From Nocardioides marmoriginsengisoli (lineage in GTDB: Bacteria; Actinomycetota; Actinomycetes; Propionibacteriales; Nocardioidaceae), in the NCBI RefSeq assembly GCF_003725695.1, contig NZ_RJSE01000007.1:882963-946962 (forward strand): a stretch of 64,000 bases of DNA, written 5' to 3'. Numbering within the stretch: the first letter of the stretch is position 1; each line of letters begins with the position of its first letter. Below, in pieces: positions 36,409-63,659 of this stretch. Both the position numbers and the translations under genes were made by a program. The notes under the pieces are model-generated. The model was given only the letters and a program-made list of their open reading frames with translations, had not been told where the DNA came from and did no database searches.

Positions 36409-36427
36409 CAAATGCATAACCGCAGGT

Positions 36428-38706: not shown

Positions 38707-39407
38707 CAACCGATTCGGATCAAAAAGTGCCGGTGGCGGGTCCGCGGAATACCCCTAACGGTCTGGCTGGTGCGAGCTCGCGGTCTAGGTCAACCGAGTT
38801 GCCGCGGGTTCCCCGCCGCTACGGGCAGTGGGCGGCCGCGGTGCTCTTCGTACTGGTCGCGGTCCTTGTCGCTGGGTGGCTCTGGCAGCAGAAGAGCGAC
38901 AAGCAGGAGGTGCTTGCGGTGGTGCACGCCGTACCTGCCGGTTCGGTGATCACTAGCGATGACCTCAAGGTCATCGAGGTTGCTGGCCTCAAGGACAGCA
39001 TCGCGGCGGCCGACCTGGAGAACGTTAAGGGGAGTACCGCTGCGGTGGGCCTGGTGGCCGGTCAGGTCCTCACGCCGGGCGTGGTCGCGGCGAATCCGAT
39101 GCCGGGAAAGGGTGAACGGGTCGTCGGGCTGGACCTCGATGCCACCCGCGCACCAACTGGGCTTCAGGCAGGCGATGTGGTGATGGTGCTCGCAGTACCT
39201 CCGGCAGGTGATGCCAGCGGGCCGGCAGAACTCGAGTCGCCGACGGTTCTCGCGGAGGTGACCACTGTCCTTTCCGCTGACCACATCGAGGGGGCCGGCA
39301 CCCGGTTGACCCTCGTCGTCGCCCAAAACGTTGCCGCCCGGGTCGCTTCCTTTGGCGCTGCCGGTCGCGTCGCACTGGTGCAGATGCCATTGGGAGGGGA
39401 CAACTGA
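38703..39407 (+). CDS. cpaB: CpaB/SAF-domain pilus assembly protein
   Basis: The 234-residue protein has a disordered N-terminus, one membrane helix (about residues 45-65) and an SAF domain. The SAF domain opens with VVHAVPAGSVITSDDLKVIE (about 77-96) and continues through GLDLDATRAPTGLQAGDVVM. This is the CpaB/RcpC type found in Tad pilus systems, which helps stabilise the secretion channel at the wall or outer layer. It overlaps both neighbours (ATGA upstream, one base downstream). Confidence 0.82.
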   Translation: MTTDSDQKVPVAGPRNTPNGLAGASSRSRSTELPRVPRRYGQWAAAVLFVLVAVLVAGWLWQQKSDKQEVLAVVHAVPAGSVITSDDLKVIEVAGLKDSIAAADLENVKGSTAAVGLVAGQVLTPGVVAANPMPGKGERVVGLDLDATRAPTGLQAGDVVMVLAVPPAGDASGPAELESPTVLAEVTTVLSADHIEGAGTRLTLVVAQNVAARVASFGAAGRVALVQMPLGGDN

Positions 39408-40219
39408 TGTTGGTTGCCATCTGCTCCGACAAGGGATCACCCGGTGCCACAACGACCGCACTGGTGCTCGCATCAGCTTGGTCGAGCCCGACCATCGTGG
39501 TTGAGGTCGACCAAGCCGGCGGCGACCTCGGCGTCCGGCTACGCCACGGTCGAGGCACCCCGTTCCCCGAAGCACCGACCGTATTGACCGTGGCGACCGC
39601 AGCCCGGACGAGCAGCCCACCCGATCTGGTTGGCCGCTACGCCCAGGTGTTCACCAAGTCGGTCTCGGTCGTGCCCGGCGCGCTCCTGGCTGAACAGGTC
39701 GGCGGCATCGCTGACTGGGCGCCTTTGGCGGATGCACTCGCCGTCTCTGAGGTGCCCGTCTTCGCCGACCTCGGTCAGCTGCACGCAGGTTCGCGGCTGT
39801 TGCCGATTGCAGCTCGGGCCGACGTGGTCGTCGTCGTTGGACGGCCCGATCCCGGCTCGGTGATCCGGCTCCGGGAACGGCTTTCACGCCTTGCCCCTGA
39901 CCTGGGGGCATTGCGCGGCAACTCTTCTCGACTGTTCCCGATTCTGGTTACCTCGACCAGGCACGGACCTGGCGACATGGCGGATCTTCAAGCGGTTCTC
40001 GCCCCCACACCCTCCAAACCATTTCTGGTGGGCTCGGGCTTTCTCGCGTTGGATCCCGCGGCAGTTCGCCGGTTGGAATCGGGCGAGGAGCCGACAGGCC
40101 GGTTGACCAGGACCGCCCTGATGCGATCGGGCCGTACGGTCGCGCAGGAACTCGCACGAGTTCTCGACAGCACTCATCGGGTACCCACATCGGGTGCAGC
40201 CACCGTGGGTGCGCCGTGA
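39407..40219 (+). CDS. CpaE/TadZ-like ParA-family protein with altered P-loop
   Basis: The 270-residue protein has the fold order of a MinD/ParA ATPase: a P-loop region SDKGSPGATTTALVLASAW (residues 7-25), a switch region VVEVDQAGGDLGVRL and VPVFADLGQ, and a later VVVVGRPDP strand. The P-loop lysine of GKT is alanine (GAT), so ATP binding or hydrolysis may be weak. CpaE/TadZ places the Tad machinery in the cell. Its stop overlaps the GTG of the TadA gene. A paralogue with the same substitution is encoded in the type IV secretion operon. Confidence 0.75.
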   Translation: MLVAICSDKGSPGATTTALVLASAWSSPTIVVEVDQAGGDLGVRLRHGRGTPFPEAPTVLTVATAARTSSPPDLVGRYAQVFTKSVSVVPGALLAEQVGGIADWAPLADALAVSEVPVFADLGQLHAGSRLLPIAARADVVVVVGRPDPGSVIRLRERLSRLAPDLGALRGNSSRLFPILVTSTRHGPGDMADLQAVLAPTPSKPFLVGSGFLALDPAAVRRLESGEEPTGRLTRTALMRSGRTVAQELARVLDSTHRVPTSGAATVGAP

Positions 40220-41523
40220 GCGACCTGGACTACAACCTCGTCAAGCGGCTCCAGGCCGAGCTGGGCCGAATCCGTCAAGACGAGATCGCCGGGCGTCGAT
40301 CCGGCGGCCTCCCAGCGCTTGCCGGACAAGACGCGCATCAGCACGGCAAAGCACTGGTTCAACGCGTCGTGGGCAACCACGAGTCACAGCTGGCGGAATC
40401 CGGAGCAGAGGCCCTCGCGTGGGAGGAACGACAGGACCTGGTCGAGGCACTCGAAGCGCGCCTGTTTGGGGCCGGGAACTTGCAGTTGCTGCTCGACGAC
40501 GAGCGTGTGGAGAACATCGACATCAACGGCTTCCAGCATGTCTTCGTGGAGTACGCCGACGGGACCACGGCCAAAGTGCGTCCTGTCGCCGGGTCCAACG
40601 AGGAGCTCGTTGAAACCATCCAGACCCTCGCTGCCCACGAAGGACTTTCCGCCAGGGCCTTCGATGTGGCAAACGTCAGGGTTAATCTCCGGCTCCCCGA
40701 TGGGTCACGGTTGTACGCGGTCCAGTCGGTCACCCGGACGCCAGTGGTTTCCATCCGTCGGCACCGGCACTCCCGCGTCGGCCTCAAGGACCTGATCGGG
40801 CTCGGCACCCTTGATGAGGATCTTGGTGACTTCCTGACTGCTGTGGTGAAGGCCCGGAAGAACGTCATGGTCGCTGGAGGGACAAGTGCAGGCAAGACAA
40901 CGTTGCTGCGTGCCTTGGCTGCCGAGATCGGTCCCGAGGAGCGCCTCCTGACCGTAGAGCGGTCACTCGAACTTGGACTGGACGAAGACACCGATGCCCA
41001 CCCGAATGCGATAGCGTTCGAGGAGCGGCTCGCGAACGCCGAGAGTGCCGGGGCGGTCACGATGGCAGAACTCGTGCGCGACACGCTCCGGATGAATCCG
41101 TCCCGGGTGATCGTGGGGGAGGTCCTGGGCGATGAGGTCGTCACCATGCTCAACGCCATGACTCAGGGAAACGACGGGTCCCTGTCCACGATCCACGCGA
41201 ATTCGTCCGCGGACGTGGTCCACAAGATCGCGACTTACGCCATCCAGGCCCCCGAGAGGCTTCCGTGGGAAGCGTCGGTGCGCCTGGTCGCGTCCGCGCT
41301 CGATTTCATCGTGTTCATCCGCCGTGTCCGCACCGAGGATGGGCAACGACGGATCGTCGAATCGGTCCGGGAGATTGCTGGCATCACCGAAGACGGACAA
41401 CTCGCCACCAATGAACTCTGGGGACCTGACGGGTTCGGTCAGACGCTACGCAGTCACGGCGTCCAGGTCCGATGCCAAGACGACCTGATCGCTGCGGGCT
41501 GGCGACCCGAAGGCGGTGCATAG
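40216..41523 (+). CDS. tadA: TadA/CpaF secretion ATPase
   Basis: The 435-residue hexameric ATPase of the type II/IV secretion superfamily has the Walker A GGTSAGKTTLLRAL at about residue 220. Its Asp-box region is MNPSRVIVGEVLGDEVVTML, and the His-box NDGSLSTIHANS is present; the N-terminal domain includes VENIDINGFQHVFVEYADG. It powers Flp pilin assembly. The start is a GTG overlapping the previous stop (GTGA). All catalytic boxes are intact. Confidence 0.9.
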   Translation: MSDLDYNLVKRLQAELGRIRQDEIAGRRSGGLPALAGQDAHQHGKALVQRVVGNHESQLAESGAEALAWEERQDLVEALEARLFGAGNLQLLLDDERVENIDINGFQHVFVEYADGTTAKVRPVAGSNEELVETIQTLAAHEGLSARAFDVANVRVNLRLPDGSRLYAVQSVTRTPVVSIRRHRHSRVGLKDLIGLGTLDEDLGDFLTAVVKARKNVMVAGGTSAGKTTLLRALAAEIGPEERLLTVERSLELGLDEDTDAHPNAIAFEERLANAESAGAVTMAELVRDTLRMNPSRVIVGEVLGDEVVTMLNAMTQGNDGSLSTIHANSSADVVHKIATYAIQAPERLPWEASVRLVASALDFIVFIRRVRTEDGQRRIVESVREIAGITEDGQLATNELWGPDGFGQTLRSHGVQVRCQDDLIAAGWRPEGGA

Positions 41524-41525
41524 CC

Positions 41526-42431
41526 GTGACGTCCTTCCCATCGATGATCGCGTTCATCGCAGTCGCCGCCTGCATCGCGCTGGGCCTGATGGCATTGGTG
41601 CAACTGGCCCGCGGCCGTTCAATAGCGCCGACATTCCTGTTTCAGCGCGCCAAGCTGGGGAGCGATCGGGTGCGCCATCTGGGCATCTCGGTTGGTGCCG
41701 GGATCCTCGTACTCGTGCTGACTCGTTGGCCGCTGGCCGGGGCCGCTGCGGGCGTCCTAGTCTTCGGGTGGCCTCGGCTCTTCGGTGGGGCCGCAGTCGG
41801 ACGCCGTCAGCTCGCGATGATCGAGGCCATCGCAGCCTGGACCGAATCATTGCGGGACACGGCAACTGCTGCTGCCGGACTTGAACAGGCCATCCCAGCC
41901 ACTCTTCCGGCGGTCCAACCGTTACTGCGCGCACCGGTGCGTGAGCTGGCCGCTCGTCTTGATGGCCGGGTGCCACTCCCAGAGGCATTGGCGCGCTTCG
42001 CCGACGACGTCGACGATCCGGCAGCGGACATGGTCGTGGCGGCTTTGTCTCTCAACGCCCGCCAACGTGCCGGCGGTCTCGACCGGATCCTGACATCACT
42101 GGCGTTGTCGTCTCGCGCGGAGCTGGAGATGCGGCGCAAGGTCGAACTTGAGCGCCGGTCGCTGCGACGTCAAGCGCAGCGGATCGCTCTGGCCGTGGCT
42201 GGGTTCGCTATCGCTCAGGCGATATTTGCGCGCGGTTGGGTCGCCCCCTACTCGAACCCGACAGGGCAGCTGGTGCTTGCAGTGTTCTTCGCCTGCTTCG
42301 TTGGCGCCTTCGCCCGGATGAAGTCTCTGGCTGCAAGCGAACCGGAGCCACGGTTCCTGACTTCGCCGGACCAGGTCACCGAGATCGCGTCCTACAAGCC
42401 GCGCTTCTCCCGGACCGGCGATCGCCCATGA
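41526..42431 (+). CDS. tadB: TadB-like inner-membrane pilus platform protein
   Basis: The 301-residue protein has membrane helices near residues 5-25, 55-80 and two at the C-terminus (about 225-275). Between them lies a cytoplasmic T2SSF/GspF domain with ATAAAGLEQAIPATLPAVQP and LALSSRAELEMRRKVELER. TadB and TadC form the platform turned by TadA. It starts at GTG 2 bases after tadA and overlaps tadC by 4. Confidence 0.82.
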   Translation: MTSFPSMIAFIAVAACIALGLMALVQLARGRSIAPTFLFQRAKLGSDRVRHLGISVGAGILVLVLTRWPLAGAAAGVLVFGWPRLFGGAAVGRRQLAMIEAIAAWTESLRDTATAAAGLEQAIPATLPAVQPLLRAPVRELAARLDGRVPLPEALARFADDVDDPAADMVVAALSLNARQRAGGLDRILTSLALSSRAELEMRRKVELERRSLRRQAQRIALAVAGFAIAQAIFARGWVAPYSNPTGQLVLAVFFACFVGAFARMKSLAASEPEPRFLTSPDQVTEIASYKPRFSRTGDRP

Positions 42432-43330
42432 TCGCCTTCATGCTCGCCTCCGGGCTCGTCGCAGTAGCCACCTTGCGTGTCTACCGGCTTGCGTTCCCGC
42501 CCCGTGTCGATCTCGTCACCGCCGTCGGTCGTTGGGACGAGTCGCGAGCACGTCCGAGCCGCGTCCAGAGCATCCGGGCCACCTCGAGCGACACGCTGAC
42601 CGGGCGACTCGGATCGTTAGTGGCAGAGCAGCTGATGCGGCGAGCGCGGAACCTGGGATCGCTTACGCAGGACTTGGCGATCTCGGGCGCAACCCTCGAA
42701 GAGCACATGTCGAAGTCACTGGCACTCGCCGGCGTCGGCTTCGTCGGACCGATCGCCATCGTCAGCTTCCTCGACGCCCTCGGCCTCGGCCTTCCACTGA
42801 TCTTCGGGCCGATTCTCGGCATCGGGCTAGCAGGGGCGATGCTGGTCGTGGTCCACCATGAACTCCAGGAGAGCGCTCGCAAGAGTCGCGCGGAGTTCCG
42901 TAGAACCCTGTCGATCTATCTCGACCTTGTCGCGATGTCGATGCAAGCCGGACGTGGGCACAGTGAAGCGCTGCCAGCCTCAGCCGCCATCGGCAGCGGA
43001 TGGGCGTTCACTCAACTACAGGACGCAATCGAAGGCGCCCGGTTCAGCGGCGTAACGCCGTGGACTGCGCTGGGTCAACTGGGCGAGCGACTCGGGCTGC
43101 GTGAGTTGACGGACCTCGAAGGGGCGCTACGCCTGGCCAACGACGACGGCGCAAAGGTACGAGCCACTCTCATCGCGCGTGCCGAAACGCTGCGAGCCCA
43201 GCGGATCGCAGACGCAGACGCGGCTGCAGCCCAGGCGACCGAATCAATGAAGTTCGCCCCGATCGTCATGGTCTTCGTTTTCCTCAGCTACGAGCTCTAC
43301 CCGTCCGTGGCCAGGCTCTTCGCCGGCTGA
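42428..43330 (+). CDS. tadC: TadC-like inner-membrane pilus platform protein
   Basis: The 300-residue product has a T2SSF domain (about residues 155-275: RRTLSIYLDLVAMSMQAGRG, then DAIEGARFSGVTPWTAL) bounded by helices at about 95-140 and a C-terminal one (APIVMVFVFLSYELYP). It pairs with TadB. The ATG overlaps the tadB stop (ATGA). Confidence 0.82.
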   Translation: MIAFMLASGLVAVATLRVYRLAFPPRVDLVTAVGRWDESRARPSRVQSIRATSSDTLTGRLGSLVAEQLMRRARNLGSLTQDLAISGATLEEHMSKSLALAGVGFVGPIAIVSFLDALGLGLPLIFGPILGIGLAGAMLVVVHHELQESARKSRAEFRRTLSIYLDLVAMSMQAGRGHSEALPASAAIGSGWAFTQLQDAIEGARFSGVTPWTALGQLGERLGLRELTDLEGALRLANDDGAKVRATLIARAETLRAQRIADADAAAAQATESMKFAPIVMVFVFLSYELYPSVARLFAG

Positions 43331-43382
43331 CCTGCCAACAACTCGACCAAGCCCAATCCAACTAGCGACTCGGAGAACGCAG

Positions 43383-43571
43383 ATGGACGACATCAGATTC
43401 TGGATCACCTGGTTCCGCACCCGCATGGCTCAGGCTCACCGCGACGAGGGCGGCTTCACAGCTGTCGAATGGCTCTTCGTCGCGCTGGGTGTCATCACGA
43501 TTGCCGGCATTGCTGTGGCCGCAGTCAAGACTTATGTCACAGGCCAGACCACCAAGCTCGGGAACCCGTAA
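43383..43571 (+). CDS. Flp-type pilin
   Basis: The 62-residue protein has a charged leader (about residues 1-23, ending RDEGG) followed by FTAVEWLFVALGVITIAGIA. The glutamate five residues into the hydrophobic helix is typical of Flp and type IV pilins, and cleavage would be after GG at about 24. It is the likely major pilus subunit. It lies between tadC and the TadE-like genes. A CpaA/TadV prepilin peptidase gene is not present in the operon, so a chromosomal one may serve. Confidence 0.75.
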   Translation: MDDIRFWITWFRTRMAQAHRDEGGFTAVEWLFVALGVITIAGIAVAAVKTYVTGQTTKLGNP

Positions 43572-43589
43572 GCGTTCGGGGGAGTGGGC

Positions 43590-43991
43590 ATGAGGCGACT
43601 GAACCAGCACCGCGACGAGGCAGGGGCGATCGCGGTGGAGTTCCTACTCACCATCGTCATGCTCATTGTCGTGTTCATGGTGATGTTGCAGTACGCCGTC
43701 AAAGCCCACGCTCAGCAGATCGCCACGGCCGCAGCCGAGGAAGCACTAGCTGCAACCTCCAGCTACGGCGCCACGACCGCCGACGGCGAGAACGCTGCCA
43801 AGACCTACCTGATCAACCTCGGCCCTGGCCTGGGCAACTCCACCGTCAAGGTCACCCGCACCGCGAACACCGCCACGGTGACCGTGACCGGCGAGGTGGA
43901 CCAGTTGATCCCGTTCCTGCCAGTGACGGTGAGCGTCCACGTCGAAGGCCCGATCGAACGGTTCGTCCCGACCGCTGCGGACACACCATGA
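43590..43991 (+). CDS. TadE-like pseudopilin
   Basis: The 133-residue protein has a short leader, then GAIAVEFLLTIVMLIVVFMVML, a TadE-type helix with the conserved glutamate. The extracytoplasmic domain ends with PVTVSVHVEGPIERFVP. TadE-like proteins are minor pilins or tip components. GGGGGAG lies just before the ATG; the open frame also includes a GTG two codons upstream. It overlaps the next gene by 4 bases. Confidence 0.75.
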   Translation: MRRLNQHRDEAGAIAVEFLLTIVMLIVVFMVMLQYAVKAHAQQIATAAAEEALAATSSYGATTADGENAAKTYLINLGPGLGNSTVKVTRTANTATVTVTGEVDQLIPFLPVTVSVHVEGPIERFVPTAADTP

Positions 43992-44434
43992 ACCGCCCAG
44001 ACCAGGCACACCACCCGGGTCGCCGAGATCGCGGTGAGGACGGTTCCATGGCCATCGAGCTTGTGCTGCTGGCCCCCGTGCTCGTCGCCTGCATCGTGGT
44101 CATCGCTGGCGGTGCCCGCTACGTCGAGGCTCGCGGCCAAACCGACAGTGCAGCTTTCGCTGCTGCTCGCGCGGCCTCACTGACCAGCAACCAAGAGGCG
44201 GCAGTCGCCGCCGGACGATCCGCTGCCGCTCGGTCGCTGGCCGAACGAGGTCGCGCCTGTTCGACGCTGGAAGTGCACATCGACGCCCACGACTTCCGCC
44301 GCGGCGGCAACATCCGCGCATCGGTGACCTGCATCGCCGATCTCTCCGACCTCGCAGGCTTCGGATTCCCCGGCCACAAAACCTTCACCTCGACCGCGAC
44401 AGTTCCGCTCGAACAACACCGAGACCTACCGTGA
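43988..44434 (+). CDS. TadE-like pseudopilin
   Basis: The 148-residue product has a basic leader with GEDGSMAIELVLLAPVLVAC. The TadE helix glutamate is again a few residues inside the hydrophobic segment. The extracytoplasmic part has two cysteines (RGRACSTLEV and SVTCIADL) that could form a disulfide. It is the second of three consecutive pseudopilin genes with overlapping ends. Confidence 0.75.
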   Translation: MNRPDQAHHPGRRDRGEDGSMAIELVLLAPVLVACIVVIAGGARYVEARGQTDSAAFAAARAASLTSNQEAAVAAGRSAAARSLAERGRACSTLEVHIDAHDFRRGGNIRASVTCIADLSDLAGFGFPGHKTFTSTATVPLEQHRDLP

Positions 44435-44847
44435 GAACCCGTGCGCGCAGCGAGCGGGGGAGCGCTTCGGTCTGGGCGGTGCTCGTGACCGCTGGCGCCT
44501 TCACCCTGCTCTTGGGACTCGTCGTGGACGGCGGCCGAGTCATCGACTCAAGACTCGCCTCCACCCGCACGGCCGCACAAGCAGCCCGAAGCGGAGCCGA
44601 TGCACTGTCCGCGGCAAGCGTCCGCAACGGCAAGGACGAGATCGCCGTCGCCACCGCGATCAACCGCGCCGAGAAGTACCTCCGCGACGCTGGAGTGACC
44701 GGATTCGCTCGCGTAGTCGGGCCCACCGTCACGGTCACGGTCACGGGCAGGTCGACCACCGTGATCCTCAGCGTGATCGGCATCAAATCCTTTCCCATCG
44801 AGGAAACGCAGAGCGCCGAGGCCATCAACCAGGGAGCACAGCCATGA
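44431..44847 (+). CDS. TadE/TadG-like secretion protein
   Basis: The 138-residue protein begins SERGSASVWAVLVTAGAFTL after a basic leader, with one membrane helix (about residues 12-34) and VVDGGRVIDSRLASTRTAAQ after it. This resembles the Rv3654c/TadG N-terminal form, in which the von Willebrand domain of TadG is lacking. The start is a GTG overlapping the previous stop. It is probably a minor pilus subunit or assembly factor. Confidence 0.7.
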   Translation: MRTRARSERGSASVWAVLVTAGAFTLLLGLVVDGGRVIDSRLASTRTAAQAARSGADALSAASVRNGKDEIAVATAINRAEKYLRDAGVTGFARVVGPTVTVTVTGRSTTVILSVIGIKSFPIEETQSAEAINQGAQP

Positions 44848-47800
44848 CCACGATCCAGCGAACTGCGACCGTGACCAGGGCCGCTGCAGCCGTGGCCTTC
44901 GTCCTGGCGTTTGTCGCCGGCGTCCCCATCCTGCTCATTGCAATGATCGGCAACCCGGTCCCGGAAGGCTGGACTCTGAACTCTCCGTTGACAGACCACG
45001 CAGTGCTCGGCCTCATCGCCTGCCTCGCATGGATCTTCTGGGCACAAATGACCCTCTGCCTCGCGGTGGAGGTGATCGCTGAGGTCAGGATCGCCGCGGG
45101 CCGACCCGCAGATTGGCTCAGCCGAGTCCCCGGAACCACGGGAGGTCAGCAAGCCCTCGCCCGCGCACTAGTCCAGGCCGTCGTCGCTGTCGGACTCACC
45201 TCTGCTGTCGCGACCGCCACACCAGGACCCTGGACGATGCCGGCAGGAGCGACGTCCGGGACCTCACTGCAGCCAGCCCACGACGTCACCACCCCTACAT
45301 CGACCTCTGCCACCCTGCCACGACCCCCGACGCAGCTCGCGCATCCGCCCGTTCAACAGCGATCAACCCACGCAACGATGGTCGAGGTCACCAAAGGTGA
45401 CTCTCTGTGGTCGATCGCAGCACAGCACCTCGGGAGTGGTGAGCGTTGGCGCGAAATCGCCGCCCTCAACGAGGGGCGTCAGATGCCCGACGGTGTCCAC
45501 TTCCGAAGCGCGACCTCCATCCTCCCTGGCTGGAAGCTGATGGTCCCCGCCCCAGCAGTCGTCTCGGGGACCACAGCATCCGAGACGACAGTTAGCGACC
45601 TGATCACGGTCGAACGCGGGGACACCCTTTGGGGCCTGTCCGAGGAGGCTTACGGGGACGGCAAAGACTGGCCCAAGATCTTCGAAGCCAACCGCGCCAC
45701 GATCGAGGACCCCGATCTGATCTTCCCCGGCCAGCAACTTCGGACACCAGGCACCCACTACAACGCCCCGGCGACGAGACCGCCCAAGCCTGCGCACCAC
45801 AACCACCCCCAACAGCCATCCACCGGGACGCAGGAGCCACCGGCTCATCAAGCTCCGCCGACGACGGTGCCGACGCCGGCACCGCCAGCGCTGTCCGGGG
45901 AACAGCCGCCTGTATCGCGTTTCGACAAGCCCACTGACGCGACGCATCCGAATGTCACCGCCGACGCGGATGGATCGGGCGCGCTTGCACGCTCGCTGAT
46001 CGGCAGCGGCGTCTTCCTCGCGGGAGGACTCTTCCTGGCGCTGATCGCCCGCAGACGCAACCAGTTCCGAACACGGCGATCCGGACGAACTATCGCCCGG
46101 ACGCCAGACGCATTGATCGAAACTGAACGAACGGTGCGCACTGCCGGCTCAGCGGGAGGCGAAGCCGCTGAATTTCTTGACCTTGCTCTCCGAGACCTGG
46201 CAACTCGACTCCGGTCCTCCGGAGGAGATATGCCGGAGGTACAGGCAGCACGGCTCACCGAGGCGCACCTGGACCTGATGATCGGGGGCTCGGCCACTGA
46301 CCCGCCAGCGCCCTGGATGGTCGCCGACCGGGGAACCTGCTGGAAACTGGCGCGTGACCATCGCCCGGTCGACGCTGATATCGCGGCTCCCTATCCGACC
46401 CTGGTCTCCGTCGGCGCCGACGATGACGGCGGAACCTGGCTGATCGACCTCGAAGCCGCCTGCGTGCTCCACGTTGTCGGTGACCAGCCAGCCGCAGCCG
46501 GCCTGGTCAGGTTCATGGCAGCCGAACTAGCGACGAACCCGTGGGCGAACACCGTCGACGTTGCACTGTGCGGTGTTGCCGCTGAGTTGATCCCGCTCAA
46601 CCCGACCCGTTTGGCGGAGGCAGCCGAACTCGACATCGGAAAGCTGACCAAGTCCGCACGACGAATCCGCGAGGCCGCCGAAGCAACGGGCCTGGGCGTC
46701 CTAGAAGGACGCCTCAGCGGACTGGGTGCCGACAGTTGGATGCCGTCAGTCCTTCTCGCCGACGTCGGGACCAAACACATCTACAGCGGCGAGGTCGACG
46801 GAGTCCTTGAGGAACTCTCCCGACTCCGCGGCCGGAACGCCATCGCGCTCGTGGCTATCGGTCCGGACGAGGTCGCGGAGGGTGCGATACGGTTGACGGT
46901 CGATAGCGCCGGACGACTCGTGACGCCGTGGGCCACCCTGGAGGCCAACCGCCTCGGACACGATGAGGCAACCGCGCTGGCTGACCTCTTCGCCGCATCT
47001 GAGGCCGATGCTGCCGACGAACCCATGCCCATCGCGTCCCGCGTCGACGGCACCACGAACGATGTGGACGTGGCCGGGGCCCTGACCGACGACGTCACAG
47101 ACACGCGCAACGGAGTAGGCGGGCCGACCTCGCTCCTTCCACGTCCCGACGTCGAGTACCTGGCGGCGGCTGCGACGACGGGTGAGGATCTTGCAATTCT
47201 CGCGCCGGCAGTCACACCGGGGATTCGGGACCGTGTCCTGAGCGACGACGCGACGCTGGAGGCCGACCACGCAGGCTGGACCGACGTCGCCGAGACGAGG
47301 CCGAAGCTACATCTGCTCGGGCCAGTCGAGGTCCACGTAGCCGGCGACAGCCCTCATGACGTGGAGCGCCGCACCGCCTACTACGCCGAACTCATCGCCT
47401 ACCTCGCCACCAGGCCGGACGGAGTCACACCCCAACAGATGGCCGAGGCATTCTCGATGCAGACCAACAGCCTGCACAGCAGAATCGCCACGCTGCGCAA
47501 GTGGCTCGGCGCCGACCCCCTGACGGAGGAGTTGTACCTACCCGAATCGACGCTCACAGCAGCAAGTAAGGCCCGCGGCATCCCCGTCTACCAACTCGAC
47601 GGCGTCCTCAGCGATGCCGACCTCTTCACACGACTCCGGGCCCGCGGTCAGGCGCGCGGACCCGCAGGGATCGAGGACCTCGTCTCCGCGCTCCGACTCG
47701 TCGCAGGCAAGCCCTTCGACCAACTGCGCCCCGGAGGCTACGGCTGGCTGGCTGAGAACCCGGTGGACCATTACCTGACCGCTGCCATCGTGGACGTCGC

Positions 47801-48056
47801 CCACATCATCGCGACCCACGCGCTCGCCGAGAACGATCCCGAACTCGCCGCCTGGGCCGCTGAGCGCGCGATCGCCGCAGCACCCTGCGAAGACAAGCCA
47901 CGTCTCGACCTGGCCCGAGCCCAAACCACACTCGGTCGCCCCGACGAGGCCAAGGAGTACGTCGCAAGCGAGATCTTCAACCGAAGCGACGACGGCGACG
48001 CGCCACTCGAGCCTTCGCCGCGAACCAGCCAGGTGTTGGGACTCGGGACACTATGA
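44844..48056 (+). CDS. LysM - BTAD membrane-anchored regulator of the Tad-like operon
   Basis: The 1070-residue protein has membrane helices near residues 12-35 and 50-75 and further hydrophobic stretches up to about 135. Two LysM domains follow (about 178-235, VEVTKGDSLWSIAAQHLG; about 252-303, ITVERGDTLWGLSEEAYG), then a P/T/Q-rich linker, a helix at about 388-408, a long cytoplasmic region, and at the C-terminus a winged helix (about 817-890) with a BTAD/TPR module (to about 1050). LysM binds peptidoglycan and BTAD is a SARP-type regulator module. It may sense the wall during pilus assembly, which is inference. It is coupled to the TadG-like gene. Confidence 0.82.
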   Translation: MTTIQRTATVTRAAAAVAFVLAFVAGVPILLIAMIGNPVPEGWTLNSPLTDHAVLGLIACLAWIFWAQMTLCLAVEVIAEVRIAAGRPADWLSRVPGTTGGQQALARALVQAVVAVGLTSAVATATPGPWTMPAGATSGTSLQPAHDVTTPTSTSATLPRPPTQLAHPPVQQRSTHATMVEVTKGDSLWSIAAQHLGSGERWREIAALNEGRQMPDGVHFRSATSILPGWKLMVPAPAVVSGTTASETTVSDLITVERGDTLWGLSEEAYGDGKDWPKIFEANRATIEDPDLIFPGQQLRTPGTHYNAPATRPPKPAHHNHPQQPSTGTQEPPAHQAPPTTVPTPAPPALSGEQPPVSRFDKPTDATHPNVTADADGSGALARSLIGSGVFLAGGLFLALIARRRNQFRTRRSGRTIARTPDALIETERTVRTAGSAGGEAAEFLDLALRDLATRLRSSGGDMPEVQAARLTEAHLDLMIGGSATDPPAPWMVADRGTCWKLARDHRPVDADIAAPYPTLVSVGADDDGGTWLIDLEAACVLHVVGDQPAAAGLVRFMAAELATNPWANTVDVALCGVAAELIPLNPTRLAEAAELDIGKLTKSARRIREAAEATGLGVLEGRLSGLGADSWMPSVLLADVGTKHIYSGEVDGVLEELSRLRGRNAIALVAIGPDEVAEGAIRLTVDSAGRLVTPWATLEANRLGHDEATALADLFAASEADAADEPMPIASRVDGTTNDVDVAGALTDDVTDTRNGVGGPTSLLPRPDVEYLAAAATTGEDLAILAPAVTPGIRDRVLSDDATLEADHAGWTDVAETRPKLHLLGPVEVHVAGDSPHDVERRTAYYAELIAYLATRPDGVTPQQMAEAFSMQTNSLHSRIATLRKWLGADPLTEELYLPESTLTAASKARGIPVYQLDGVLSDADLFTRLRARGQARGPAGIEDLVSALRLVAGKPFDQLRPGGYGWLAENPVDHYLTAAIVDVAHIIATHALAENDPELAAWAAERAIAAAPCEDKPRLDLARAQTTLGRPDEAKEYVASEIFNRSDDGDAPLEPSPRTSQVLGLGTL

Positions 48057-56658: not shown

Positions 56659-57720
56659 GTGGGCAACCACAGCGCAGCCAAGTACGGAGCACCGCTACTC
56701 CTCGGCGGTGTTGCTCTTCCGATCCTGTTCCTCGCCCTGATCGGCAGCCAGGCCTCCCAACCTCCCGACCCCTGCGGCCACGGCGTCGTCGCAGATCCCG
56801 CCACAACTGTCGCGAACCAGAAGATCGACGCCGAACAGATGTCGGTCGCCACGCAGATCGTCGCGGCCGCACGCGCCTTCGGGCCCACCTCGAACAAGCC
56901 CCATGCCGCTGTCATCGCCCTGGCAACCGCACGACAGGAATCAGGCATCCGCAACCTCGGCTACGGCGACCGCGACTCCCTCGGCGCGTTCCAGCAACGA
57001 CCCTCACAAGGCTGGGGGACAATCGATCAGATCCGAAACGTCTCCCACGCGACCACGACATTCCTTCAACACCTCGTACGGGTCCCCGGATGGGAGACCA
57101 TGCGGGTGACCGACGCGGCAGCGACCGTGCAACGGCCAGCCGAGGAATACAGTGGCCTCTACGAACAATGGGTTCCCCTCGCAAACGACCTAACCAAACA
57201 GCTCTGGCCCGGCGCCATCCTCGCCCTGGCTGCAGCAACGAACACGCAGTCTTGTAACCCGATCGTCCTGGCAGCAGCCGGCACCATCGTCTATCCGGTC
57301 CCGGCCACGTTCACCGCAACCAACCAGAACAACTGGGGCCACAGCGGAGGCCACTGGAGTAGCTGGCACACCGGCACCGACTTCTCGGTCCAATGCGGCA
57401 CCCCAGTCCTCGCCGCGACCAGCGGCACCATCGGCATCGACAGATCCCAAAGCTGGGCAGGGCCCTGGCTCGTCACGGTCGTCACCGGACCCAGCTCGCT
57501 AGCCACCTGGTACGCGCACATGCAACAGGTCCTGGTCTCACCAGGCCAAGTCGTCACAGCCGGACAACAAATCGGCAAGGTCGGGGCGCTCGGCAACGCC
57601 ACCGGGTGCCACCTGCACTTCGAGGTCCACCTACACAACGGCAGCATCTATGGACCCGACAACACCGATCCGACACCCTGGCTGGCTGCTCATGCGGGGC
57701 GCGCTGCAGGGCCTGGGTAG
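56659..57720 (+). CDS. Lysozyme-like / M23 peptidase wall hydrolase of the T4SS
   Basis: The 353-residue protein has an N-terminal membrane anchor (about residues 10-30). A lysozyme-like domain follows (about 60-185, with ARQESGIRNLGYGDRDSLGA, then FQQRPSQGWG). The C-terminal M23 metallopeptidase domain has the zinc ligands in HTGTDF (H237, D241) and HLHFEVH (about 317-323). It probably cuts glycan strands and cross-links to let the conjugation channel pass the wall. It starts at GTG three bases after the VirB4 stop. Confidence 0.85.
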   Translation: MGNHSAAKYGAPLLLGGVALPILFLALIGSQASQPPDPCGHGVVADPATTVANQKIDAEQMSVATQIVAAARAFGPTSNKPHAAVIALATARQESGIRNLGYGDRDSLGAFQQRPSQGWGTIDQIRNVSHATTTFLQHLVRVPGWETMRVTDAAATVQRPAEEYSGLYEQWVPLANDLTKQLWPGAILALAAATNTQSCNPIVLAAAGTIVYPVPATFTATNQNNWGHSGGHWSSWHTGTDFSVQCGTPVLAATSGTIGIDRSQSWAGPWLVTVVTGPSSLATWYAHMQQVLVSPGQVVTAGQQIGKVGALGNATGCHLHFEVHLHNGSIYGPDNTDPTPWLAAHAGRAAGPG

Positions 57721-57768: not shown

Positions 57769-58314
57769 ATGTCCATTCGCCCTCCTCTACTGCACTTGGT
57801 GAAGCATGGAAGCAATCCAAGGTCGCGACCGCTGATGCGTGTCCAGAGTCAACGGACCGATGTTCTCCCGCTCACCTGGGAACTGCCGGCAGGCCTAGGA
57901 CTGACCTGGTGCCTGGCAGCAGTCCTCGCACTTCCAGTCGGCCAGGGATTGGCCTACCTTCTTGTCGGCGAGCCGTTCGCGTGGCCCGACCAGGCGTTGG
58001 GCCAGAGTCTGCTGGGTCTGCTCGCGGGCGAGCCCGGGCGAGGTTTTCCCGTCGCGGTCGCAAGCAACTGCCCGCAGGCGGGCCTGGTGTACGGATGCAT
58101 CGCACTGGTTGAGGTGCTGGTCGCAATTGTCGCTGTCTGGGCGTTGGGATGGTGGTGGAGGACGGTCGGGCCCGCTGCGCAGTTCGGGCTCGCGAGTCGC
58201 CACGAGGTCCAGGCCGTACTCGGGCCGCGTGTGCTCCGCAAGCGGCGCAAGACGATTCGCCCGGACACCGTCGCGCCAACGTCGAGCTGGTTCTTCCGGC
58301 GGGGTCAGCCGTGA
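57769..58314 (+). CDS. Membrane protein upstream of VirD4 (possible split N-terminus)
   Basis: The frame encodes 181 residues; an in-frame ATG at 57835 would give a more typical 159. Two membrane helices (about residues 43-66 and 108-128) frame an extracytoplasmic loop with a pair of cysteines (SNCPQAGLVYGC). A basic cytoplasmic tail follows. VirD4 coupling proteins usually have exactly such an N-terminal two-helix segment, whereas the next gene's product lacks one. The stop overlaps the next start (GTGA). It may therefore supply the membrane part of a split VirD4. Confidence 0.65.
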   Translation: MSIRPPLLHLVKHGSNPRSRPLMRVQSQRTDVLPLTWELPAGLGLTWCLAAVLALPVGQGLAYLLVGEPFAWPDQALGQSLLGLLAGEPGRGFPVAVASNCPQAGLVYGCIALVEVLVAIVAVWALGWWWRTVGPAAQFGLASRHEVQAVLGPRVLRKRRKTIRPDTVAPTSSWFFRRGQP

Positions 58315-59741
58315 CTCGAGAGCAGCTCGCCGAGATCGGATGGCCCTTGGGCAAGTCGACGATTCCACGGGGTGTGGACCTGTGGGTGCCCTTCGACCGC
58401 ACCGTCGGCGTCTACGGACCCCAAGGCTCCGGAAAGACGCTCGATCTTCTGACGCCTGCTCTGCTGTCGGCGCCCGGTGCCGCCCTGGTGACCCTGACCA
58501 AGCCAGAGGACCTATTCCTGACCCTCGACGCTCGCGCCCAAGACGAACGCCCGGTACACGTCCTCGACCCCTTCGATCTGGCACCAGGCGTTCCGCAGCT
58601 GATCTGGGACCCGATCGACGGCTGTGAGGACTCCATGACAGCCGAGCGGCGCGCTAAGGCATTCACCGCGGGAACTGTCGGCGGCGCCGTCACGCGAGGA
58701 ACCGGCGACGATGCCGCCCGCTTCTACGCGGCCGAAGGAGCCAAGGTCCTCCAGGCGTACTTCCACTCGGCGGCGCTAGCCGGGGCCTCCCTCGACGACG
58801 TACTCACCTGGCTCTCGGACCCTCACAACGCGGGACAGCCAGAGGAGATCCTGCGGACGCACCCGGGCGCCGCGCCTTTCTGGGACGGCCTGTTGCGCGG
58901 CGCAATCCACGGCGACGACCGCACAGCAGGGAACACGATCACAACTGTTCAGCAAGCAATGGCGTTGTTCTTTCAAGAATCGATCCGGCGACGCTGCGCG
59001 CCCGGTCCCGGTCGCCCAGCGATCGACCTCAAGGCTGCGATCGAGGCCGGCGGCACGATCTACCTGCTTGGCCGTGACGATCCCTATGCCTCTGCCTCCC
59101 CGCTGATGACCGCGATCGCTGAACACGTGCTCGACACGGCGCTGGGCATGGCCATGGCTTCGCCCTACGGTCGATTGTGCCCGTCATTCTTGGCCTGTCT
59201 GGACGAGTTGCCATCGACCACACCACTACCCACGCTCCGGACACGGATCGCAAACGAACGCGCGCTCGGACTGTCATTCATCTACGCCGCCCAGACCTGG
59301 CGCCAACTCGTCATCTGCTACGGGGAAGACGAAGCCCGCACCATGTTCGGACTGACCAACAACATCGTGGTCTTCGGTGGTGGCAAGGACATCGAGTTCT
59401 ACAAGGAGATCTCCGACCTCCTCGGTACGACGCGGGTCGCTCGGCGCAGCTTCAACCTGAGCCACGGCGCCTGGGGCAGCAGCTTCTACGGCGACGACGT
59501 GCCGGTCCTCCGACCAGAAGAGATCCGCCGACTCCCAGAGCGCCACGCCTTGGTGGTGGCGGAGAATGCCAAGCCGTTCATCGCTCGGCTGTCCAGGTGC
59601 ATCGACGGTAAGGCCGGTCGCGCCTTGCTGAGCGCCCAGACGGAAGCCCGGTCACGTGCCAATCGAACGCGAGGAGGTCGCCGATGGCGGACCAACCTAC
59701 ACGTCTTCTCGCTGTTCCTTTTCCGTCACCGTCGCCGGTAG
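58311..59741 (+). CDS. VirD4/TraG-type coupling ATPase without membrane segment
   Basis: The 476-residue protein begins VTREQLAEIGWPLGKSTIPR and has a Walker A YGPQGSGKTLDLL at about residue 33. The Walker B region is LACLDELPST near 293, and the TraG C-terminal block includes LSFIYAAQTWRQL and TMFGLTNNIVVFGGG. The soluble part is complete, but the usual N-terminal helices are absent. The GTG overlaps the stop of the two-helix protein. The C-terminus (KAGRALLSAQ and onward) is arginine-rich. It is the DNA-recruiting pump of the T4SS. Confidence 0.85.
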   Translation: MTREQLAEIGWPLGKSTIPRGVDLWVPFDRTVGVYGPQGSGKTLDLLTPALLSAPGAALVTLTKPEDLFLTLDARAQDERPVHVLDPFDLAPGVPQLIWDPIDGCEDSMTAERRAKAFTAGTVGGAVTRGTGDDAARFYAAEGAKVLQAYFHSAALAGASLDDVLTWLSDPHNAGQPEEILRTHPGAAPFWDGLLRGAIHGDDRTAGNTITTVQQAMALFFQESIRRRCAPGPGRPAIDLKAAIEAGGTIYLLGRDDPYASASPLMTAIAEHVLDTALGMAMASPYGRLCPSFLACLDELPSTTPLPTLRTRIANERALGLSFIYAAQTWRQLVICYGEDEARTMFGLTNNIVVFGGGKDIEFYKEISDLLGTTRVARRSFNLSHGAWGSSFYGDDVPVLRPEEIRRLPERHALVVAENAKPFIARLSRCIDGKAGRALLSAQTEARSRANRTRGGRRWRTNLHVFSLFLFRHRRR

Positions 59742-60325
59742 TAGTCGCCAACTTGGACGAGCTGCGACTCGCAGCAGCGATCCCGCCTGAATCGGAGCAC
59801 GAGCTCCGTCGGCTATCGACACTCCCGCGTCCCTGGGATCCGCCGACCTGCCCTGATGAACTCCGGTGCCTGATCTACGTGTGGCTCGATGAGGTTGTCG
59901 CTTGGATCAACGAAGAGCACACCTGGCGCACCGATCACGTGATCCCGATGTGCTGGCAAGAACACCCCCACATCGTTCACGAACTCGCCACGATCGCCTG
60001 CCTGCGTTGGGAGGCGGCGTACGCCGTGACCTCGACCGCACTGGAGGAATGGCACCGCTACGCGCTGCCCACCTTCCTCGATCGGATCTCTCAGCGCATC
60101 GGCTCGACCGGCTGCCCGCCGGGGCGCCACCAGGCGCATCCAGGCGATGCGCGCAACGCCATCTATCGCGAAGGCGATGAGTCGACTCGACGGCGTGAGC
60201 ATCGTTGGCAAGACACTTCCGATCCGCGCGATGGCGCGGACCCTGACGGATCGATCGCGGCAGATATGACGCACCCATCGCGGCAGATAGAATCGTTGCA
60301 GCCTCACGACGCTTGGAGACTTTGA
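59684..60325 (+). CDS. DUF4913-like protein after virD4
   Basis: The 213-residue protein has a central domain with LIYVWLDEVVAWINEEHTWR, MCWQEHPHIVHELATIACLR and YALPTFLDRI. These resemble the tryptophan/histidine pattern of DUF4913, commonly encoded next to conjugation genes in actinobacteria. The tail is hydrophilic. The ATG has GAGGAGG just before it and overlaps virD4 by 58 bases. A roughly 115-base gap without a clear terminator separates it from the convergent Argonaute gene. Confidence 0.6.
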   Translation: MADQPTRLLAVPFPSPSPVVVANLDELRLAAAIPPESEHELRRLSTLPRPWDPPTCPDELRCLIYVWLDEVVAWINEEHTWRTDHVIPMCWQEHPHIVHELATIACLRWEAAYAVTSTALEEWHRYALPTFLDRISQRIGSTGCPPGRHQAHPGDARNAIYREGDESTRRREHRWQDTSDPRDGADPDGSIAADMTHPSRQIESLQPHDAWRL

Positions 60326-60441: not shown

Positions 60442-61860
60442 CTACATGAACAGCCGGAACTGGTAGCTGTCGTCCGGCAAGTGCGGTACCCGGCTGATCA
60501 TTCGTGCGAGCCGCTGACTGTAGGAGATGGTCACCGGGGTCAGCCCGTACAGGGCGTCGTTGTTCCAGTCGAGCTTCGACAGCGCAAGGATCTCGCTGGC
60601 AGGAATCTCCAGGGGGCCGGCGCCGGCGTAGCGCTTGAACGCAATCGGGGTCGGCAGCGCCTTGGCCGCCTGGTTGTAGTTGTCGCCCTGCAACGCGACA
60701 CCCTTCGCCGTGCCGGCGACCCACAACAGAGCCTCCCGTTCAGAGAGGTATTGGAGAGATCCGCGGTCCACGGGCCAGCTGTTGGGGACCGCCGCGCTGC
60801 CAGTGCCGCGACGCAGGGTGACGCCAGTCCAGGGTGTGTCTGCACGCACCTGGAGGCACTCGATGTCAGCCACGGCCGGGCTCCACGCGTCGAAGACCCC
60901 GGCGACCTCTTCCTCACGCCAGGGCGTCGTCTTGTGGATGACAAGACGCTGTGGCAGCGCCCCTGCTCGGCGGCGCTGGTAGAGGCGGGCGCTGCGTGCC
61001 ATCACAGTGCGCATCTCGTCGCGTGTCAGGTGCGGGTTCTCCAGGTCCCGGTCGGCGCCGACGTTGTAGGCAATGAACTCGAAGCCGCCGCCTTCGGCGT
61101 CGAAGACCTGCGAGCAGCAGGTGACGAACTCGTCGGCGGTTCCGCCGCGGATCGCGTAGGCCAACCCGAGGTACGCAGTGTCGGTCTGGGTCGGCTGCAC
61201 CATTCGGAACGGCACACCGCCGGACTTGGTAAGCAGCGCGATCGATAGGCGCCAGTACATCGAGCACTGGTACTTGAATCGCAGGGCAGAGGCCTCGCGG
61301 ACCATCTGGATGGGGCACCCAAGTGGCGCGGCCATCGCCTTCAGGCGATCGTGCAGGTCCAGCGCACCGTCTGAGCTGAGTCTGAGAGGCTCCCAGGCTT
61401 CAGGCAGGAGGACGACGATGACATCCCAGGAGTCGCGGATGGTGTGCAGGTGCCGGACGGCACGGGCCAGCGCGTCGCTGAGCCGCTCGTGCGCGTCAGC
61501 TCCGGTGCCGATCTCGCTGCTCCTGATGTCGACGTGGGCGTCGGACTGGGGAACCAGGTCGGCTTTGAACAGTGCCCCGAACCCCGGGTACCGCGGTACG
61601 TACGCACGACGGTCGCCGGGTTCGTGCACCTGGGTGGCGCCGCGGAGAAAGCCGTAGAGCTTCTGCTTCTGACCATCTAGCGTGATCGTGGCCAACCGCA
61701 CGCTGTCGGTCGGCGGGCCTGCGTACGGACCGTGGTCGAGTAGGCCGACGAGCGGATGACCCGATGTTGCCGGGTTCGGAGTGCTGTCGAACTTCAGCAT
61801 CGGTTCCTGAAGGATCGTGTGCGGCGCCCACGGTTGGCGGGGGTCGACGTCGTGGCTCAT
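60442..61860 (-). CDS. Short prokaryotic Argonaute (catalytically inactive)
   Basis: The 472-residue protein has the MID-PIWI layout of short Argonautes. The MID guide-pocket region is at about residues 183-220 (PIQMVREASALRF, then KYQCSMYW, with the conserved lysine K212 in LLTKSGGVPF). The PIWI domain follows, with AYLGLAYAIRGG, LVIHKTTPW and a hydrophobic C-terminus ending FRLFM. The RNase H positions are lost: the first aspartate is alanine in LGLAYA, the HxD site reads HKT, and the last is SQR. It probably senses guide-target duplexes and activates the SIR2-APAZ partner. Its ATG overlaps that gene's stop (ATGA). Confidence 0.9.
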   Translation of the reverse strand: MSHDVDPRQPWAPHTILQEPMLKFDSTPNPATSGHPLVGLLDHGPYAGPPTDSVRLATITLDGQKQKLYGFLRGATQVHEPGDRRAYVPRYPGFGALFKADLVPQSDAHVDIRSSEIGTGADAHERLSDALARAVRHLHTIRDSWDVIVVLLPEAWEPLRLSSDGALDLHDRLKAMAAPLGCPIQMVREASALRFKYQCSMYWRLSIALLTKSGGVPFRMVQPTQTDTAYLGLAYAIRGGTADEFVTCCSQVFDAEGGGFEFIAYNVGADRDLENPHLTRDEMRTVMARSARLYQRRRAGALPQRLVIHKTTPWREEEVAGVFDAWSPAVADIECLQVRADTPWTGVTLRRGTGSAAVPNSWPVDRGSLQYLSEREALLWVAGTAKGVALQGDNYNQAAKALPTPIAFKRYAGAGPLEIPASEILALSKLDWNNDALYGLTPVTISYSQRLARMISRVPHLPDDSYQFRLFM

Positions 61861-63659
61861 GCTGACCTCCAGCTATGTGCTGAGAACGCGCCGAGGGTAA
61901 AGCCGCCGAATGTGTCGGGCACGCAGGCGCGGGGAAGGCGAAGCGAGACGTCCTTGCGGTGAGGTGCGATCGAAGTCGCCCACACATCGATGATGCCGGC
62001 CCACGTCTCATTCTGCTTGCGCTGCACCCAGCGTTCCCGACGCCAGTCCGCTGCCGGGTCGACGACCATCATTTCGTGGTCCTCGTCGCGTTCGAGTCGC
62101 TCGACCCAGGTGAACGGGACGAAGATCATCCACGGAACCCCCCATCGCCACTCGACGTGGACACGCGCCGCCTCCGCCCAGGCGCGCTGTTCTCCACGCC
62201 GGTTCAGCCCGCGACCTTCTCCCAAGTGCCCGGTGACCTGGCCGTCGTAGGCTTTCTTGAAGCGGCGAAGCGCGTGTTTCCGAGGTTCGCTGAGGTCCTC
62301 CCACTCGTGCAGCAAAACCAAGGCGTCGTGACGCGTCATCCTGGCTCGGGCCGGCAGCCACGATGCGATCGACTTAGCCAGACCCTGGACGAGCAGCCCT
62401 TGCAGGCCCGGCTCCGGGATGCCGCCGGTCAGGTCGATGTCGACGACCTCGGGAGCGGTGCCAACGATTCGTTCGAACTGCTCTGAGTCACCCCAACCCC
62501 ATGCGCTTCCGCCAGCGTGGACAGCAACTCCGCGCCACTCGGCTTCCTTAGCTCGCCGACGGAACTCCTCGTTGTCGACGCCGGACAGCGGAGCGTGCAG
62601 GACCGATGTGGGAGCGGCCAGGAGCGGGAGCGCGTTGTAGCGGATGATCGGGTAGCTGCGTTTGCCCTCCTCGGGTGGAGAGGCGGCCGCGACCCGGGAC
62701 GCTGGTTGTAGACCATTGATGTACGTGCGGGCGCCTTCGGTGAGCTCGGCTTGCAGGACGAGGCTGGCCATCAGCTCGTCGAAGGTCTCCAACGCCACCA
62801 GGTAGGAGGACACACCCCGCTCGGTGGCGGCCTCTAGGAGACGGCGCACCCGATCGGGTACACGGTCTGGCTCCCGTGCGAACCACCACAGGCCAGCAGG
62901 CCAGGCGCTGTCGGGCAGCGTCGCGCTCTCCAGCATCTCCATGACGCTCTCATCGCGGCCACTGTAGCCCACGACGGCCAGTCCCACGTTCCGGCTGACG
63001 TCCTGAACGGACTGGCGCAGCACCTGGTCTTGCGCAACCAACTCGTCGGTCAGGTTCTTCAGCGACGACTCCCGGAAATCTCCGTGGAGCTTGACCAGGA
63101 GCGGATGATTCTCGGAGGACAGGATGTGGCGCGCACGGTCGACGCTGTTCAGCGCGGCGACGTTCAGGCGCCGCGGATCTCCTACGTCATTGACAGCGGA
63201 GTAGGACTCGGCGGCGGCTTGTTCGATCAGATCGTCGAAGTTGGTCGTGGTGGCGATGTCGATGAAGCCAGCGGTCATCAACGCCCCGAAGATCCTCTGA
63301 CCGTAGCTCGGGCTACAGCCCTTCAAGATGCCTTGCAGGTACGAATGGCGAGCCGACTCGTCAGGCAGTGCCAGCTTGAACGCGCAGGAGTAATCGTCCG
63401 CGGAGCCGAACAGCACCATACTGTTTCGGCCGTCGAAGTACGAGGTCAGTGCGGAGCGGACGTTCGGGTCGTTCGCGTTCAGGTTCTGGCGGACAAGGCC
63501 GTGCCGTTCTGCGTAGACACGCAGGAGCAGGTCGTCACGGACTTGATTCGCCGTCCGCAAGCCTGCCGACGCGCTCGCGCCGGCACCAAGGAGCCATGCG
63601 AACCGCTGGGGCTGAACAGCCCAGGCCCGCACGAAGGTGCCCTGATCGACAAAATCCAC
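61857..63659 (-). CDS. SIR2-APAZ NADase effector of a SPARSA system
   Basis: The 600-residue protein has an N-terminal SIR2 domain (about residues 15-280). It contains GAGAS at 25-29, TTNFDD at 138-143 (N140), KLHGD at 190-194 (H192) and GYSGRD at 231-236, so the NAD-hydrolysing site looks intact. From about 315 to the end is an APAZ region, the Argonaute-binding module. In known SPARSA systems the complex uses RNA guides to detect invading DNA and then depletes NAD+. The start is GTG with a weak ribosome site. A LexA-like box lies 25 bases upstream. Confidence 0.9.
   Translation of the reverse strand: MDFVDQGTFVRAWAVQPQRFAWLLGAGASASAGLRTANQVRDDLLLRVYAERHGLVRQNLNANDPNVRSALTSYFDGRNSMVLFGSADDYSCAFKLALPDESARHSYLQGILKGCSPSYGQRIFGALMTAGFIDIATTTNFDDLIEQAAAESYSAVNDVGDPRRLNVAALNSVDRARHILSSENHPLLVKLHGDFRESSLKNLTDELVAQDQVLRQSVQDVSRNVGLAVVGYSGRDESVMEMLESATLPDSAWPAGLWWFAREPDRVPDRVRRLLEAATERGVSSYLVALETFDELMASLVLQAELTEGARTYINGLQPASRVAAASPPEEGKRSYPIIRYNALPLLAAPTSVLHAPLSGVDNEEFRRRAKEAEWRGVAVHAGGSAWGWGDSEQFERIVGTAPEVVDIDLTGGIPEPGLQGLLVQGLAKSIASWLPARARMTRHDALVLLHEWEDLSEPRKHALRRFKKAYDGQVTGHLGEGRGLNRRGEQRAWAEAARVHVEWRWGVPWMIFVPFTWVERLERDEDHEMMVVDPAADWRRERWVQRKQNETWAGIIDVWATSIAPHRKDVSLRLPRACVPDTFGGFTLGAFSAHSWRSA

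Follow-up and report, generated by a model that had tools for sequence, protein, structure and literature searches.

A two-gene operon on the reverse strand of a 64,000-nucleotide stretch of the Nocardioides marmoriginsengisoli genome (the whole analysed stretch is called the window below) encodes a SIR2-APAZ protein and a short Argonaute, and judged by its sequence it is a further, intact-looking member of the already known short prokaryotic Argonaute/SIR2-APAZ (SPARSA) type. The operon is very probably a SPARSA defence system that is carried as cargo of an integrated conjugative element, sits in a slot for defence genes, and belongs to a clade that travels on such elements. Seen directly here are the sequence and its domains, the conserved active sites, the replacement of slicer residues, the selection on both genes, and the element context. 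The operon is probably an ordinary-looking, functional SPARSA, and its added interest beyond the known type lies in the tie of its clade to MOBF conjugative elements and in a changed guide-base pocket. Searches of open-access papers turned up no study that describes a SPARSA from an actinobacterium or on a mobile element.

The operon and its family

An initial annotation of this DNA had described a SPARSA-type system in which a SIR2-APAZ gene with the motifs GAGAS, TTNFDD, KLHGD and GYSGRD overlaps a short MID-PIWI Argonaute by ATGA. Both reading frames are exact, and the features of the operon, all on the reverse strand, are the following.

61857..63659, reverse strand: SIR2-APAZ gene, 600 amino acids, GTG start (reading frame, exact coordinates)
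63659-62730, reverse strand: SIR2 NADase domain, approximately residues 1-310 (limits by analogy with Geobacter)
62651-61860, reverse strand: APAZ, approximately residues 337-600 (limits by analogy with Geobacter)
61857..61860, reverse strand: ATGA overlap of stop and start codons, SIR2-APAZ to Argonaute
60442..61860, reverse strand: short Argonaute (MID-PIWI) gene, 472 amino acids

All four motifs are located in the 600-residue product (GAGAS at 25-29, TTNFDD at 138-143, KLHGD at 190-194, and GYSGRD at 231-236), and the overlap is found at 61860-61857, which points to translational coupling of the two genes. The SIR2-APAZ and Argonaute genes are adjacent and on one strand in 13 of 13 aligned relatives. 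Two loci were left out of the alignments (A1 and A2). Locus L028, labelled Bacillus sp. AZ43 (unverified), has the same BLAST match coordinates as the Geodermatophilus locus L027, and its label is probably wrong. Locus L034, from another actinobacterium, features a 930-residue frame (1498-4290, reverse strand) that matches both SIR2-APAZ and Argonaute and is apparently a fused form. A 486-residue gene about 100 bp upstream of the operon (same strand; window position 63760 and beyond, L002:222-1682) was rejected as a third operon member because Pfam and PADLOC give no match and a homolog at E 1e-8 is absent from the flanks (about 1.5-11 kb) of 13 other SPARSA loci.

The assignment to SPARSA stands on models for both proteins and on the solved Geobacter complex. 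The Argonaute matches the PADLOC model pAgo_I (class I short prokaryotic Argonaute, pAgo) at 4.2e-167 over nearly its whole length, and residues 42-599 of the SIR2-APAZ protein match Aga_SIR2-PNTD1-PNTD2 at 5.9e-138. The best solved relatives by phmmer are the Geobacter SPARSA chains (7.9e-90 for the Argonaute and 5.7e-51 for SIR2-APAZ), and with these E-values and those of PADLOC the match is not a chance one. Profile alignment places residues 1-591 of SIR2-APAZ (14-row profile A1) on residues 1-580 of 8jkz_A at 2.7e-131, with APAZ covered. The phmmer alignment places the Argonaute from residue 10 to its end on residues 8-473 of the Geobacter sulfurreducens Argonaute (GsAgo); its 472 residues comprise MID-PIWI only, without N or PAZ. 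The Argonaute also matches other solved short pAgos by sequence. Pfam finds SIR2_2 (7.7e-15) and Piwi only below threshold (0.33), and NCBIfam gives no match above its cut-offs for the operon proteins. The profile searches for APAZ and PIWI that the initial annotation had proposed thus matched both.

The active sites were compared in 16 rows, namely 15 SPARSA proteins (L028, the duplicate of L027, is counted) and the Geobacter protein (partial sequence). The Geobacter study (PMC10781750) reports that alanine mutants of N142, H186, F143, D144, Y226, and F287 in the Geobacter SIR2-APAZ protein (GsSir2) lose NADase activity, that R30, S38, and E262 mutants stay active, and that joint loss of Y89 and R190 abolishes activity. 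The six residues that are essential in single mutants are all kept in the window protein as N140, H192, F141, D142, Y232, and F293, and Y226 is the only one of them to vary across the 16 rows (C in L071 and F in L072). The dispensable positions differ (A30, N38, P268) and the Y89/R190 pair is present as Y90/R196. The NAD-binding and catalytic SIR2 residues are retained, and a loss of the pocket was not found.

The catalytic slicer residues of Thermus TtAgo are D478, E512, D546, and D660. An hhalign comparison of a 14-row Argonaute profile with TtAgo places R238, T311, and Q449 at D478, D546, and D660; the fourth position, the glutamate finger E512, is not reliably alignable. The claim that every RNase H residue is replaced therefore holds for three of the four positions. 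The GsAgo contacts to the 5'-phosphate of the guide, H166, K170, and Q181 (H170, K174, and Q185 in the window Argonaute), are identical in 16 of 16 rows, Geobacter included, and GsAgo D164 is retained as D168.

The Geobacter sulfurreducens system (GsSPARSA; PDB 8in8, 8jkz, 8jl0, 8k87, 8k88, 8y7z, 8y80, 8y82), from which all the solved SPARSA structures that were found derive, shares the two-gene layout with proteins of 587 and 473 residues, compared to 600 and 472 in the window. It is also alike in its SIR2, APAZ, and MID-PIWI domains, its essential SIR2 residues, its 5'-phosphate residues, and a PIWI domain without slicer residues (at three of the four positions). The target-DNA contacts N82/Y84 differ and are A/V in the window system; Y359 is W there. 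SPARTA (TIR-APAZ/short pAgo) and SPARDA (nuclease-APAZ/short pAgo) have the MID-PIWI short pAgo in common with the window system and also have an APAZ partner; however, their effectors are TIR and nuclease domains rather than SIR2.

By analogy with Geobacter, the short Argonaute and SIR2-APAZ would form a heterodimer whose MID pocket would hold a small guide RNA, and the channel between APAZ and PIWI would check the pairing of the guide with invader DNA. Pairing of guide and target would activate the SIR2 NADase, which would empty the cell of NAD+ and stop the invader in an abortive manner. RNA-guided, DNA-triggered NAD+ hydrolysis by the predicted heterodimer is thus the expected activity, and the protection would serve both the host and the element against phages and rival plasmids.

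The probable integrated element and its cargo slot

The operon lies downstream of a tRNA gene and among genes for conjugative transfer. The features of the element are listed below; those beyond the end of the window are given on the window scale, and C2 denotes positions on the contig.

36335..36409, forward strand: tRNA-Met(CAT), 3' end in the presumed left attachment site
36375-36411: attachment (att) core, 37 nt (last 35 nt of the tRNA and two more), at C2:919337, with copies at C2:1154092 and C2:1218236 on the same contig
38592..44434, forward strand: genes resembling Tad/type II secretion (SAF, T2SSE ATPase, two weak T2SSF, TadE; Pfam)
44844..48056, forward strand: LysM-TPR protein; a 36% identical homolog adjoins the transfer genes of L027
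54991..56655, forward strand: P-loop ATPase, perhaps VirB4/TraC-like (AAA_10 0.005, TraG P-loop 0.027)
56659..57720, forward strand: M23 peptidase of the transfer cluster (Pfam)
58149..59741, forward strand: TraG/VirD4-type coupling protein (Pfam TraG-D_C 1.1e-25)
59684..60325, forward strand: backbone gene after traG, 213 amino acids, bounding the cargo slot on the left (unmatched in Pfam and PADLOC)
69068-72816, beyond the window (L002:5530-9278): genes of the type found in cyclic oligonucleotide-based antiphage signalling systems (CBASS)
74868-80228, beyond the window end: TrwC relaxase-helicase-primase, 1786 amino acids (Pfam TrwC 2.6e-89)

The 37-nt core was sought within 87 kb of the tRNA and not found there; its copies are 235 and 299 kb away. 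Three copies of the core suggest that the tRNA-Met site is probably occupied by two elements in tandem, about 235 and 64 kb long, and the transfer genes of the window and the SPARSA operon fall within the first tract of about 235 kb. No genes beyond the third copy were found to be shared with six relatives. The empty site is therefore backed by short stretches of similarity, for example 76 nt with 84% identity to G020, about half of which is tRNA, and the division into two elements is accordingly unproven. The initial annotation had named a tRNA-fMet element. The tRNA-Met(CAT) and the repeat of its 3'-end core stand, and the sequence of the tRNA reads as an initiator, as the first acceptor pair is lacking and the anticodon stem has GGG:CCC; a complete mobile unit was not established. 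Within the transfer cluster, the AAA_10 and TraG P-loop matches of the P-loop ATPase are below the curated cut-offs, and nSTAND3 scores slightly better. In a description of actinobacterial integrative and conjugative elements with a type IV secretion system and a MOBF relaxase (PMC3218068), TrwC, a TraG-type coupling protein, and a tRNA site are features shared with this element, which differs from them in its weak VirB4 assignment and in lacking an integrase of the families PF00589 and PF07508.

The position of the operon was compared with stretches of 20 kb from TraG onward in six relatives whose TraG is 71-80% identical (G278, with less than 3 kb beyond TraG, was omitted). Homologs of the 213-residue backbone gene, 60-73% identical, follow TraG in all six, and five of the six keep the order TraG, 213-residue gene, TrwC relaxase; in the sixth, the relaxase was not seen within its 20-kb stretch. 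The gap between the 213-residue gene and TrwC is 1.2, 4.1, 1.7, 0.2, and 0.5 kb in those five relatives and 14.5 kb in the window genome, where TrwC is the only one of the genome. The initial annotation had put the operon at the border of the conjugation genes; since the relaxase follows further on, the operon belongs to the interior of the element, where it occupies a slot with TraG and one more gene on one side and the relaxase on the other. Its description as element cargo was strengthened by the 37-nt core 235 kb downstream, by the five of six backbone relatives without the 14.5-kb insert, and by SPARSA relatives near TrwC.

The 14.5-kb slot contains the SPARSA operon, the 486-residue gene, and the CBASS-type genes, which encode an oligonucleotide cyclase (3e-130), a CapP-like peptidase (2.9e-15), a 516-residue protein with a weak nucleoside-deoxyribosyltransferase match that is possibly an unusual effector, and another whose match to CARF is weak (2.4e-6). 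PADLOC matched three of the 10 proteins scanned. In four relatives, four of 10 proteins in or near the slot match models of candidate conflict or defence proteins (PDC-S29, PDC-M63B, PRTase_III-A, and CARF6; two are weak) and six match none. A stretch of 215 bp in the slot (C2:954527-954741, L002:8027-8241) is 78% identical to the DNA of the tRNA-side integrase gene of G005 and may be an integrase remnant from an older insertion; the open reading frame at this stretch (L002:8009-8350) has no Pfam match. After TraG in a relative of the same genus, genes for a CARF protein, an ORC-CDC6-like protein, PRTase-CE, and an HAD-like protein (L092:10314-16412) form a possible conflict system.

Relatives and the association with TrwC

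The closest copy found is that of Granulicoccus phenolivorans (L026), with protein identities of 88% for the Argonaute and 86% for SIR2-APAZ. The DNA is 84% identical over 3.25 kb (63691-60444), and no DNA similarity was found outside the operon ends. Granulicoccus belongs to Propionibacteriaceae, another family of the same order as the window genome. The copy of Nocardioides pelophilus (L030, same coordinates as G192), which like the window genome belongs to Nocardioidaceae, is only 74% identical. The tree groups the window copy with Granulicoccus (97/96) and this pair with Geodermatophilus LHW52908 and N. pelophilus (100/100), and three other Nocardioides copies fall apart from this group. 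The plain reading of these comparisons would be horizontal transfer of the operon, and PMC6299218 reports horizontal transfer for pAgos in general. The rates of nonsynonymous and synonymous substitution (dN/dS) relative to Granulicoccus are 0.067/0.560 (about 0.12) for the Argonaute and 0.073/0.710 (about 0.10) for SIR2-APAZ, and both genes are under purifying selection.

Within the genus, only the window genome among 24 carries the operon. Of 341 family genomes, 16 show an Argonaute match of some kind, and five of these (own included) match at nearly full length with E <1e-150; a phylum sample of 396 gave 11 genomes with a match, four of them (own included) at nearly full length with E <1e-80. 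Among plasmids, 84 records match, every one below 60% identity. A phage origin of the operon was considered and rejected, as the phage records searched gave no match. Two loci on Sagittula and Paracoccaceae plasmids (L074 and L075) carry closely similar SPARSA operons, one on a conjugative and one on a small plasmid, and each directly follows a Fic-family gene.

The clade of the window copy is an eight-row branch of the tree, with L028 dropped from the counts. In seven of the eight members a TrwC relaxase is present on the SPARSA contig within 33 kb, at 11.2 kb in the window genome, 16.4 in L026, 21.4 in L027, 2.7 in L029, 32.9 in L030, 14.1 in G256, and 22.9 in G205 (contig identity was confirmed for four members); the eighth, G305, has no TrwC match. 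With a limit of 35 kb, which was set after the distances had been seen, 0.34 of eight would be expected by chance, and the value of 2e-10 for seven of eight is a rough guide, as related loci are not independent and the TrwC copy numbers include fragments and one sub-threshold match. Outside the clade none of three genomes features the association (G602 and G361 are without TrwC, and G575 has it on other contigs), and three plasmid-borne SPARSA relatives are typed by PLSDB as MOBQ, MOBP, and non-mobilizable, so not all SPARSA systems follow the pattern. A TraG homolog shares the contig with SPARSA in L027 (at about 11 kb), L030 (about 44 kb), and G256 (10 kb).

The position of SPARSA is not constant in these elements. 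In L027 it is flanked by the homologs of the LysM gene and of the transfer gene that comes next, in L029 it adjoins the relaxase, and in the window genome it lies between TraG and the relaxase; this variety favours repeated capture over a single inherited insertion. Six of 10 scanned neighbour proteins of such SPARSA loci match defence models and four match none; the matches are a weak Gabija-like pair in L026, a Gabija pair and a DRT reverse transcriptase in L029, and PDC-S28 in L068. The SPARSA copy of a Rhizobium plasmid adjoins Qat.

Objections and alternative explanations

Several results weigh against a functional SPARSA carried by a mobile element. The structure prediction that the initial annotation had proposed was run for single chains, and the AlphaFold models from five-row alignments were too poor to use (predicted local distance difference test, pLDDT, of 39 for the Argonaute and 52 for SIR2-APAZ), so neither the fold nor the interface is supported by structure. 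The conserved phosphate contacts are weak proof of function, since PMC10781750 reports that GsAgo H166A and Q181A stay active and only K170A drops. The GsAgo contacts to the second guide base, R190/N195, are F195/S200 in the window Argonaute. GsAgo N184 is not conserved and corresponds to R188 or E189 depending on the placement of a one-residue gap, the loop there being one residue longer in the window Argonaute; loss of N184 in GsAgo abolishes activity. Finally, an integrase of family PF00589 is absent from the tract of about 235 kb, with the only one of the contig at C2:1164809 in the second tract, and a recombinase of family PF07508 was found only on another contig; as neither of the two tested families was found in the 235-kb tract, the mobility of the first element itself is unproven.

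With R190, N195, and N184 changed, the GsAgo-type contacts to a 5'-AU guide are not present in the window Argonaute. S200 is found in 15 of 15 non-Geobacter rows and an aromatic residue at position 195 in 14 of 15 (Q in L072), and the GsAgo-type contacts are a trait of the studied member rather than a defining feature of SPARSA. These changes suggest that guide use may differ and that the window SPARSA may have another 5' preference than Geobacter. The effect is perhaps modest, since the Geobacter system is activated by 5'-U and 5'-A guides alike, as reported in PMC10474274. The window and Granulicoccus copies provide intact actinobacterial SPARSA systems with a different guide-base pocket, by which the rule of guide choice can be tested by comparison.

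The missing integrase also bears on the explanation that the operon is a chromosomal defence operon near transfer genes by accident, as does the right host border, which lacks synteny support because no gene beyond the third att copy is common to the six relatives. This explanation is very improbable, as the operon separates two backbone parts, TraG with the gene after it and the relaxase, that are 0.2-4.1 kb from each other in five of six relatives, and as a tRNA with a repeated 3' end lies upstream of it. Equally far-fetched is a decayed or silenced copy that is kept by hitchhiking on the element; the patchy occurrence in the genus would fit decay, but both frames are open and at full length, dN/dS is about 0.1, and the six essential SIR2 residues are all retained.

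A closer competitor keeps the same proteins and gives them the chief job of excluding other elements: they would abort cells that a rival plasmid or element has entered instead of stopping phages. TrwC within 33 kb in seven of eight clade members and a tRNA site that apparently holds two tandem elements agree with such a role, as does the statement in PMC10474274 that short pAgo NADase systems counter plasmids as well as phages. General antiphage systems nearby (a CBASS-type cyclase, Gabija, DRT, and Qat) argue against it. Defence islands on mobile elements are also common without a role in element exclusion, and exclusion as the chief job is possible yet the less likely account. A defence system serving as cargo in a defence-gene slot is the preferred explanation. 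It is more speculative still, and rather unlikely, that this SPARSA branch is a specialised weapon of actinobacterial MOBF elements that is recurrently captured, uses a different guide 5' end, and mainly polices conjugative DNA. The link of the clade to TrwC makes it testable whether conjugative elements use guide-RNA/target-DNA immunity against each other.

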